From an uncultured Chlorobiaceae bacterium (lineage in GTDB: Bacteria; Bacteroidota; Chlorobiia; Chlorobiales; Chlorobiaceae): a stretch of 64,000 nucleotides of DNA. The DNA lies in the NCBI GenBank assembly GCA_903871235.1, contig CAIQGA010000142.1:1-64000 (forward strand). Reading direction: 5' to 3'. The position numbers and the translations under genes were made by a program. Below are positions 60,617-64,000 of the stretch, in pieces (positions within the stretch are counted from its first letter, which is position 1; every line of letters begins with the position of its first letter). Under the pieces are notes generated by a model. It worked only from the letters and a program-made list of their open reading frames with translations, did no database searches and had not been told where the DNA came from.

Positions 60617-62383
60617 ATGAAGCCGAATATCATGGGTGGCTCAATGCTCAAAAGAACTTTTGCATTTGTTGATAGAATCACCGACAGAAACCGGGCACCC
60701 CGGTGCTGGTGGTATCCTGTGCCACCCCAGGGGAAACGGCACAGGGAGTCGGTCAGCCAACTGCACGAGAGCTACGCAAAAACGATCAACAAGACCATGT
60801 TTGCGCTGCTCGGTGTCGGGCTCTACTGCTTGCTCAAGGTTTTTGGCGAATCCGACAAGTCGCTTCTTGTTGCCAATATAACCATGCAAACCCCGGTGGT
60901 TGGCACCTCCATCTCTTTTCAAAGTTTTCTTGTTGTAGCCCCGTTTCTCCTTGTTCTCCTGACCGTCTATCTTCACATCGTTTACGGACATTGGTTACAG
61001 CTCGAAAGAGAGCGTCAGCATCTCAACGAGACGCGGGAGAATCCTGATGACCCCACCATCGAGAGCATTCCCGCTCTTTTCAGCTTTAAAGAGCGCCTGC
61101 CACGCCTCTTTACCAACCTCGTTTTTTACTGGTTTGTACCGCTGACTTTGTGGTTCATGGCCCGCAAGGCTTTTGCCCTCAGGGAGTTCATTCTTCCCTT
61201 TTCCTTTGGCGCTTCCATCGTCACACTCTCCCTGCTTTTTTTGCAGATCAATCGTTGTCCCGATTCAAAACTACAATCAGAATTCACTTCAAAACGGTGG
61301 TTCTGGAGCTTGTTTCGATGGAGAGCAATGAACCTTTTTTCAAAGCGGGGGTTCTGGAATCTCCCCAGATGGGCAGCTTTCGGAGCGCTTGCCGTGTTCA
61401 CGCTCAATTTCCCATCTCTTTCCGAATCATTCCGCCGTCCACTCGATCTTCAGCGGGAAGATCTTCACGGAGCCTGGCTGCAAGGACTCGATATGGCTGG
61501 CGCTGACATGAATAACGCCAATCTGCAGGGGGCGAACCTTGGTGGAGCAAATCTTCAGGGCGCAGACCTTCAAAATGCCAACCTTCAGGGAACTCATCTC
61601 AAGGGGGCTCATTTGCAAAAAGCACATCTCAACGGTACCAATCTTCAGGGAGCAAATCTTGGCGGAGCTGATTTTGAAGAAGCTGACCTTTTTTCTGCCA
61701 ATTTCAGGGAGGTAAAAGAGATGGAGCCGTATCGAATCAAAACAGCGGTGAATTGGAATCGTGCATTTTATGAAAGTGAGATGCTTAAGTTTCTTAAACT
61801 TTCTCCTACTCACAATGATGACCTTGCACGTATTGGCACATACTCTGGCGGAGGAAAAATTGCTTATATTTTTCAGCCGGGCGACAAGGGTTACGTTAAC
61901 GGGGAACAGCATGGCCTTATTGCCGCCGAAGCAGATATAAAAACTACATACACTGATGCATGGACTGGAAAGTCAATAACAGGTGAATACTGCTGGAGTA
62001 CCAGTCAATATGAAAATGAGAAAAAGAGCGATTATGCATTTCAGGAATTGTTAAACACCAGTACACTGATAGGTGAAGGCAAAGCCAATACCGACAATAT
62101 ATTGGCAAAATACCCTGCTGCAACGTTTCCCAACAGCGCTGCAGCAGTGGCAAGGGCATACAGGGGTGGTGGTAAGGATGACTGGTATTTGCCAAGCAAG
62201 AGCGAGTTGAACCAGCTTTATATCAACAGTAGTGCTGTTGGCGGTTTTGCTTCCGGCGTCTACTGGAGTTCTACGGATGGCAGTGCAGTCGGCGCATGGA
62301 GCCAGTTTTTCGACGATGGGAGCCAGTACTACAGCAACTACAAGAGCGTCGAGTGGCTGGTGCGGCCTGTCCGGGCTTTTTAA
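60617..62383 (+). CDS. DGR variable target protein: multi-TM, pentapeptide repeats, DUF1566/C-type-lectin-like C-terminus
   Basis: About five hydrophobic segments; 'ANLQGANLGGANLQGADLQNANLQGTHLKGAHL...'; 'GKIAYIFQPGDKGYVNGEQHGLIAA...WYLPSKSELNQLY...SGVYWSST...WLVRPVRAF*' containing VR. Confidence 0.93.
   Translation: MKPNIMGGSMLKRTFAFVDRITDRNRAPRCWWYPVPPQGKRHRESVSQLHESYAKTINKTMFALLGVGLYCLLKVFGESDKSLLVANITMQTPVVGTSISFQSFLVVAPFLLVLLTVYLHIVYGHWLQLERERQHLNETRENPDDPTIESIPALFSFKERLPRLFTNLVFYWFVPLTLWFMARKAFALREFILPFSFGASIVTLSLLFLQINRCPDSKLQSEFTSKRWFWSLFRWRAMNLFSKRGFWNLPRWAAFGALAVFTLNFPSLSESFRRPLDLQREDLHGAWLQGLDMAGADMNNANLQGANLGGANLQGADLQNANLQGTHLKGAHLQKAHLNGTNLQGANLGGADFEEADLFSANFREVKEMEPYRIKTAVNWNRAFYESEMLKFLKLSPTHNDDLARIGTYSGGGKIAYIFQPGDKGYVNGEQHGLIAAEADIKTTYTDAWTGKSITGEYCWSTSQYENEKKSDYAFQELLNTSTLIGEGKANTDNILAKYPAATFPNSAAAVARAYRGGGKDDWYLPSKSELNQLYINSSAVGGFASGVYWSSTDGSAVGAWSQFFDDGSQYYSNYKSVEWLVRPVRAF
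62230..62380 (+). repeat. DGR variable repeat (VR)
   Basis: 151-bp gapless alignment to 62962-63112 (offset 732): 18 mismatches, 16 at TR adenines. Confidence 0.96.
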
Positions 62384-62417
62384 CCATTTATCCATTTAAC
62401 AATTAACCTCTGGGGGT

Positions 62418-62439
62418 ACAGGGGGCTTTTGCCCCCTGT
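62418..62439. promoter_or_regulatory. GC-rich hairpin/cruciform downstream of VR
   Basis: ACAGGGGGC (62418-62426) TTTT GCCCCCTGT (62431-62439): perfect 9-bp stem, 4-nt loop, starting 38 nt after VR end. Confidence 0.8.
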
Positions 62440-62961: not shown

Positions 62962-63112
62962 TAGTGCTGTTGGCGGTTTTGCTTCCGGCGTCTACTGGAG
63001 TTCTACGGAGAACAATGCAAACAACGCATGGAGCCAGTTTTTCGACAATGGGAACCAGAACAACAACAACAACAAGAACAACGAGTGGCTGGTGCGGCCT
63101 GTCCGGGGTTTT
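62962..63112 (+). repeat. DGR template repeat (TR)
   Basis: Noncoding copy of VR between avd and RT; Asn-codon rich (AAC runs) at the sites that differ in VR. Confidence 0.96.
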
Positions 63113-63128: not shown

Positions 63129-63154
63129 CGCCCGGATGAAATTCTCTCCGGGCG
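63129..63154. promoter_or_regulatory. hairpin immediately upstream of the RT start codon
   Basis: CGCCCGGA (63129-63136) / TCCGGGCG (63147-63154), 8-bp stem, 10-nt loop. Confidence 0.6.
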
Positions 63155-63160
63155 TTATAC

Positions 63161-64000
63161 ATGAAGGAACCTTCGCCATTACAACTCGAACTCTTTCCAC
63201 CTGCGCCAATCGCTCTTGCCGAGCTGTTTGAAGCTTACGAAAGTTGCCGTCGTCATAAGCGAAAGACGCAAAATGCTATGGCATTTGAACTTGATTATGA
63301 GCAAAATCTTGTTTTTCTCTGTGAAGAGATCAATAATGGCAAGTACCAGCCGGGGAGTTCTATTGCCTTTATTGTCGAAAAGCCGGTCAAACGGGAGATA
63401 TTTGCGGCTGATTTTCGTGATCGTGTGGTGCACCATCTCATTATCAATAAACTGAACGGGCTGTTTGAAAAAGAGTTTATCGCTGACAGCTACTCCTGCC
63501 GCAAGGGAAAAGGAACACATAAAGGCATTGAGCGCCTTGACCGGTTTATCCGGCAATGTTCTCGAAACTACAGCCGTGACTGCTGGATTTTAAAGATCGA
63601 CATCAAAGGCTTTTTTATGAGCATTGACCGTAAACGCCTCTACCATAAACTGGAGTTGTTTATCAGGGCGAACTACCACCATTCCGACCGTCCGACTCTT
63701 CTTGAGCTATGCCGCAAGGTTGTTTTTTATGATCCGGCGGCCAACTGTATCATCAAGGGGAGGCGTGCAAACTGGAAAGGGCTGCCGGACGACAAAAGCC
63801 TTTTTTACTCCCGTCCAGGGTGTGGTTTGCCGATTGGTAATTTGACCAGCCAGGTTTTTGCCAACTTCTATCTCAATGGCTTTGATCATTTCATGAAACA
63901 CACCCTCAGCTTGCGATACTATGGTCGCTACGTTGATGATTGTGTTGCGGTTCACCACAGCAGGGGAGTTTTGCATTCCCTCTTGCCGATCATACGCATG
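63161..64000 (+). CDS. DGR reverse transcriptase (3' end beyond window)
   Basis: Manual translation: 280 codons open to window end; 'ILKIDIKGFFMSIDR', 'GCGLPIGNLTSQVFANFYLNGFDHFM', 'LRYYGRYVDDCVAV' (YVDD); absent from ORF track because no stop lies in the window. Confidence 0.96.
   Translation, partial: MKEPSPLQLELFPPAPIALAELFEAYESCRRHKRKTQNAMAFELDYEQNLVFLCEEINNGKYQPGSSIAFIVEKPVKREIFAADFRDRVVHHLIINKLNGLFEKEFIADSYSCRKGKGTHKGIERLDRFIRQCSRNYSRDCWILKIDIKGFFMSIDRKRLYHKLELFIRANYHHSDRPTLLELCRKVVFYDPAANCIIKGRRANWKGLPDDKSLFYSRPGCGLPIGNLTSQVFANFYLNGFDHFMKHTLSLRYYGRYVDDCVAVHHSRGVLHSLLPIIRM

Follow-up and report, generated by a model that had tools for sequence, protein, structure and literature searches.

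Does the perfect inverted repeat ACAGGGGGC-TTTT-GCCCCCTGT at positions 62418-62439 of the window (the whole 64,000-nucleotide stretch of Chlorobiaceae DNA analysed here) serve the diversity-generating retroelement (DGR) in which it lies as a target-site hairpin? The main step of DGRs still to be explained is how the mutated cDNA enters the target, and a hairpin is among the few cis requirements known for them. What has been established in detail about this hairpin derives from Bordetella phage BPP-1 and a handful of phage sequences. A perfect GC-rich hairpin just after the variable repeat (VR) was the original prediction, and the sequence and coordinates, read directly, bear it out: nine perfect pairs, seven of which are G-C.

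The locus is a complete DGR, with a reverse transcriptase (RT), Avd, a template repeat (TR), and a VR that differs from it at TR adenines (Table 1); RVT_1 and bAvd matches were both found. Target 1, the hairpin, avd, TR, and RT follow one another in this order, and beyond the window lies target 2, a TIR + Lcl_C protein gene, which has an identical hairpin of its own at C142:65453. Over the last 125 nt, VR1 is changed relative to TR at 16 of 39 adenines and 2 of 86 other positions, and VR2 at 20 of 39 adenines and 1 of 83 other positions, which is clear adenine mutagenesis. IMH and IMH* differ by a single base (62376 vs 63108), reading GGGC in VR and GGGG in TR before TTTT, and this difference is identical in every TR-VR set examined. 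Target 2 (L004:4534-7620, i.e. C142:64534-67620) is immediately followed by a Septu-like pair, PtuA (PADLOC E 2e-114) and PtuB (5e-54); a hypervariable TIR protein here adjoins an anti-phage system. Separately, the hairpin between TR and RT, in a spacer of only about 48 nt in total, recurs behind the TRs of Chlorobium, where changes in one arm are compensated in the other (CGCCCGGC..GCCGGGCG; GTGGGCG..CGCCCAC in L076), and may, as RNA, serve to recruit RT-Avd and prime cDNA.

Table 1. Coordinates of the DGR features within the window.
Feature	Position	Strand	Remarks
DGR target gene 1, 588 aa	60617..62383	+	pentapeptide repeats and C-terminal Lcl_C/DUF1566 domain containing VR
Variable repeat VR1	62230..62380	+	left edge approximate
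IMH, 3' end of VR	62360..62380	+	GTGCGGCCTGTCCGGGCTTTT; TR version has GGGG where VR has GGGC
Stop codon and conserved AT-rich spacer	62381..62417	+	TAACCATTTATCCATTTAACAATTAACCTCTGGGGGT
Probable target-site hairpin/cruciform	62418..62439	.	arms 62418-62426 and 62431-62439, loop TTTT 62427-62430
avd, 117 aa	62456..62809	+	bAvd PF22296
Template repeat TR	62962..63112	+	left edge approximate; IMH* GTGCGGCCTGTCCGGGGTTTT
TR-RT hairpin	63129..63154	+	CGCCCGGA-10 nt-TCCGGGCG; differs from VR hairpin; conserved behind TRs
DGR reverse transcriptase	63161..64000	+	leaves the window; ends at C142:64396

Since the TR/VR match ends at 62380 and the stem starts at 62418, the spacer between VR and stem is 37 nt; the placement just 3' of VR thus stands, while the distance first given, 38 nt, does not. 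The hairpin also lies, as anticipated, between the target stop (62381-62383) and the avd ATG (62456), which begins 17 nt past it. It is the single perfect stem in the 64 kb window with at least 9 bp, at least 7 G-C pairs, and a loop of 3-8 nt, and no such stem arose in 15 dinucleotide shuffles of the window. Its DNA folding energy is -11.1 kcal/mol, and the region folds with z = -2.8 as single-strand DNA and z = -1.9 as RNA; an Rfam scan matched no known RNA family. No GC hairpin occurs at the matching distance behind TR.

Across the 3.3 Mb genome, the motif GGGGGC-N3..8-GCCCCC has exactly three occurrences, at C142:62421, C142:65456, and C228:18577, each of which follows a DUF1566/Lcl_C DGR-type target. 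Looking behind other DUF1566 VR genes of the genome, the check proposed at the outset, therefore recovered the same element at C142:65453 and C228:18574. A mobile hairpin (REP/MITE-like) is ruled out, as the genome has no copy away from VRs. At the third target the hairpin is the same as at 62418 and is followed by a decayed avd copy. The VR of this target (L005:5911-6770) is not derived from the TR of the assembly (17 of 84 non-A positions mismatched), and the target is an orphan from a different DGR lineage. The three copies have about 80 nt in common around the hairpin, and copying of the VR block appears to reach as far as the avd start codon.

We scanned 86 Chlorobiaceae genomes with an IMH pattern that takes no account of the hairpin, read 140 distinct IMH sites (a few of them from relatives outside the family), and compared each VR candidate with 12 TRs at non-A positions. 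A hairpin was scored when it had at least 6 bp and at least 5 G-C pairs and started 25-45 nt after the IMH. VRs matching a TR at 92% or more of non-A positions (within 8%) were taken as the close class, drawn from the 86 genomes plus one distant relative; one further VR (L158) is cut by a contig end. The hairpin was present in 29 of these 31 VRs and behind none of the 12 TRs, against a random-position background of 96/20000 (0.5%), a plain contrast. The corresponding Fisher value is 6e-9, with independence overstated since the sequences are related. The two exceptions carry a register-shifted 5 bp hairpin (L034) and a larger, unrelated one (L076). Relatives diverged by more than 15% from TR have the hairpin in only 8 of 75 cases, and the element could serve as a practical signature for live DGR targets far from an RT.

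Because a search pattern demanding GGGGG..CCCCC makes stem invariance circular, we assessed stem conservation anew on the set anchored at the IMH. There, the core GGGGGC/GCCCCC is unchanged in 29 of 30 Chlorobium VRs of the class within 8%, while the loop and downstream bases vary. Outer pairs have changed yet remain paired (TATA/TATA in L065, AGCA/TGCT in L109, GACA/TGTC in L145 and L082), and the outer arms TGCAG/TTGCA of L035 pair with one G-T. Many Chlorobium copies belong to an ACC..AGT class in which six uninterrupted pairs are followed by a C-A mismatch (-6.8 kcal/mol); this mismatch next to the 6-bp core is found in 20 of 47 copies, and extended covariation is mixed. Some of the hairpin conservation is due to VR and hairpin having been copied together as one block. 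Further afield, hairpins of unrelated sequence stand at this position in L076, a MAG labelled Actinobacteria, and in L077 from Treponema, the latter with a 12-bp stem, CCCCTTTTCCGC.

RT searches widened to the class and the phylum turned up no DGR outside the genus that was closer, and a viral_contigs search gained none. A second, distant DGR clade with an RT 35-37% identical occurs in five Chlorobium genomes (L099, L100, L101, L102, and L103); its TR/VR differences are adenine-only, but no comparable GC hairpin lies behind its VR. One RT match (L028, G066:C134:29051-30280) is reported with two internal TAG codons in a DGR that is otherwise 87% identical and VR-bearing.

Chlorobium loops include TTTT, AAA, AAC, GAA, AGC, AGG, TCT, TTA, CCA, TCA, CTTG, and CTCG, among others, and in no Chlorobium copy is there a 4-nt GRNA loop such as that of BPP-1. 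Four genomes with a single TR and several VRs keep the same stem core behind different loops (AAC/GAA/AAA/AAA in G073, AAA/AGG/AAC in G055, AGG/AAA in G063, and AAC/AAC/AAA in G084). Their VRs match the TR at all but 1-2 non-A positions, the mismatches always including the IMH G-to-C change, and this near-complete match to one TR makes it very probable that the same machinery overwrote them despite their differing loops. Such genomes amount to a natural experiment, which suggests that the Chlorobium clade can do without a particular loop sequence; it is the stem that appears to count. They also favour models with the structure opening the target over models with a loop-reading protein. There is perhaps an even chance that the DGR of this clade uses the hairpin without reading its loop, the GGGGGC stem being recognised or the structure merely holding the target open. 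If so, the critical GRNA loop of BPP-1 would represent just one of several solutions, and the targets of a given DGR could swap loops. In one class, all loops are A-to-G/C variants of AAA, which might suggest that the DGR RT mutates the loop as well; this reading was not adopted, as independent changes are too few and the TR has no hairpin.

On this comparative evidence, we consider it highly likely that the inverted repeat at 62418-62439 is a cis-acting DGR target-site hairpin: almost all such targets in related green sulfur bacteria have a hairpin behind them, so that it very probably marks the site of rewriting. The orphan target, whose hairpin is still perfect though the avd copy behind it has decayed, also supports this role. 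Counting against it are the TTTT loop, which falls outside GRNA, the 37 nt spacer, the mismatched ACC/AGT class, and the VRs of some phages and of the second clade that have no hairpin. We hypothesize that, in DNA that is supercoiled or transiently single-stranded during replication or transcription, a 9-bp hairpin or cruciform would form just 3' of VR and IMH. Once folded, it may open the IMH/VR region to the RT-Avd/cDNA complex or allow the complex to recognise this region, and adenine-mutagenised TR cDNA would then be written into VR efficiently. The lack of a hairpin at TR, together with the single-base difference between IMH and IMH*, would restrict transfer to the direction from TR to VR. 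The sequences themselves show the capacity to fold, the placement, the confinement to VRs, and the recurrence in distant DGRs with unrelated sequence; that a cruciform forms in the cell, acts on homing, and controls direction is what we infer from them.

A GC-rich stem-loop directly past a stop codon could instead be an intrinsic terminator or attenuator, reducing the transcription that runs on into avd-TR-RT from the target gene, and a weak terminator was indeed the alternative originally named. At the 62418 copy this is unlikely, as the stem runs into TAAAAATATTTTT rather than a T tract and no terminator was called. The element is retained exactly where read-through into avd is needed, and it tracks VR identity rather than gene ends in general: no other site in the genome has the same stem, and a hairpin is missing from most of the diverged DUF1566 genes. 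Nevertheless, a tract of at least eight T residues lies a few nt after the stem in 8 of 20 copies without avd, vs 1 of 27 with avd following, and the C228 copy, with a T tract directly after its stem, was flagged as terminator-like. The hairpin seems able to act as a terminator too at stand-alone targets, while copies leading into avd seem to avoid this, and at some other copies termination is a plausible additional function.

An RNA element on the mRNA, either stabilising the target message at its 3' end or tuning avd translation as a leader structure, would fit the strong RNA fold and the closeness of the avd start. It is nonetheless very improbable, as the hairpin is also kept behind targets without avd (C142:65453 and C228) and in several other genomes, and its outer pairs mix G-C and A-T with no clear G-U preference, so that RNA is not favoured over DNA. 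That the hairpin is a mere passenger, copied between targets within the VR block so that its recurrence is uninformative on function, can draw on the shared flanks of the three genomic copies but has a very low probability given a constant core stem beside variable loop and downstream bases, different sequences folding at the same place in L035, L065, L109, L076, and L077, and a perfect hairpin in the orphan C228 target.

The target-site role finds its closest parallel in BPP-1, whose hairpin, GCGGGGCC-GAAA-GGCCCCGC, we read directly in the mtd/avd interval. Both systems have the order target (mtd in the phage)-hairpin-avd-TR-RT, a perfect GC-rich stem of 8-9 bp with a 4-nt loop just 3' of VR/IMH and absent after TR, and near-equal DNA stability (-11.4 kcal/mol in BPP-1). 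The original prediction that placement and geometry fit a role of the BPP-1 type thus gains support from order, stem size, stability, and association with live VRs rather than TR, all pointing to a probable target-site function. The likeness extends to stem size and loop size but not to loop sequence, which is GAAA (GRNA) in BPP-1 and TTTT here.

In BPP-1, stem disruption lowers tropism switching more than 1000-fold and compensation restores it; the stem is required by structure and the loop by sequence and size, a GAAA-to-CTTT change leaving it close to inactive (Guo et al. 2011, PMC3240598). VR-hairpin distances of 4-34 bp have been reported and called flexible (PMC3240598), and the 37 nt here fall just outside this range. 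When the BPP-1 DGR was reconstituted in E. coli, stem-loop deletion caused severe impairment, and the stem-loop was modelled as prolonging the single-stranded state of the target (PMC12875486). With a stem within the 7-10 bp of such perfect GC-rich repeats downstream of VR, the element at 62418 probably resembles a target-site hairpin in its working, outside the subclass with a 4-nt 5'-GRNA loop in the sense strand.

Other phages have hairpins at the same place (F2/F4, H5, Cruim01, SC_8, LPPA56, BS-TP1, and phiWae15), while several further phage VRs that we read have no comparable one. Loops are GAAA or GGTA in Bacteroides F2/F4, H5, and phiWae15 and CTCG/CTTG, GCA, CCC, or TAA elsewhere; GRNA is therefore not universal among phages either. 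The Pseudomonas phages Cruim01 and SC_8_H2H8_2017 share C-closed small loops (CTCG/CTTG) with some Chlorobium copies and have a GC stem 29-32 nt after VR, but the stem (CCGGCCG) is unrelated, the RT only about 38% identical, and the role of the hairpin putative. Group IIC introns, which recognise terminator-like stem-loops (discussed in PMC3240598), are related RT elements that read a DNA stem-loop beside the insertion site and need the stem but not its exact sequence, although there an intron is inserted whereas in a DGR a repeat is overwritten. What is novel in the Chlorobium clade is that place, geometry, and stability are as in BPP-1 while the loop rule differs: in BPP-1 the stem sequence is free and the GRNA loop critical, whereas here the stem is fixed (GGGGGC) and the loop free.
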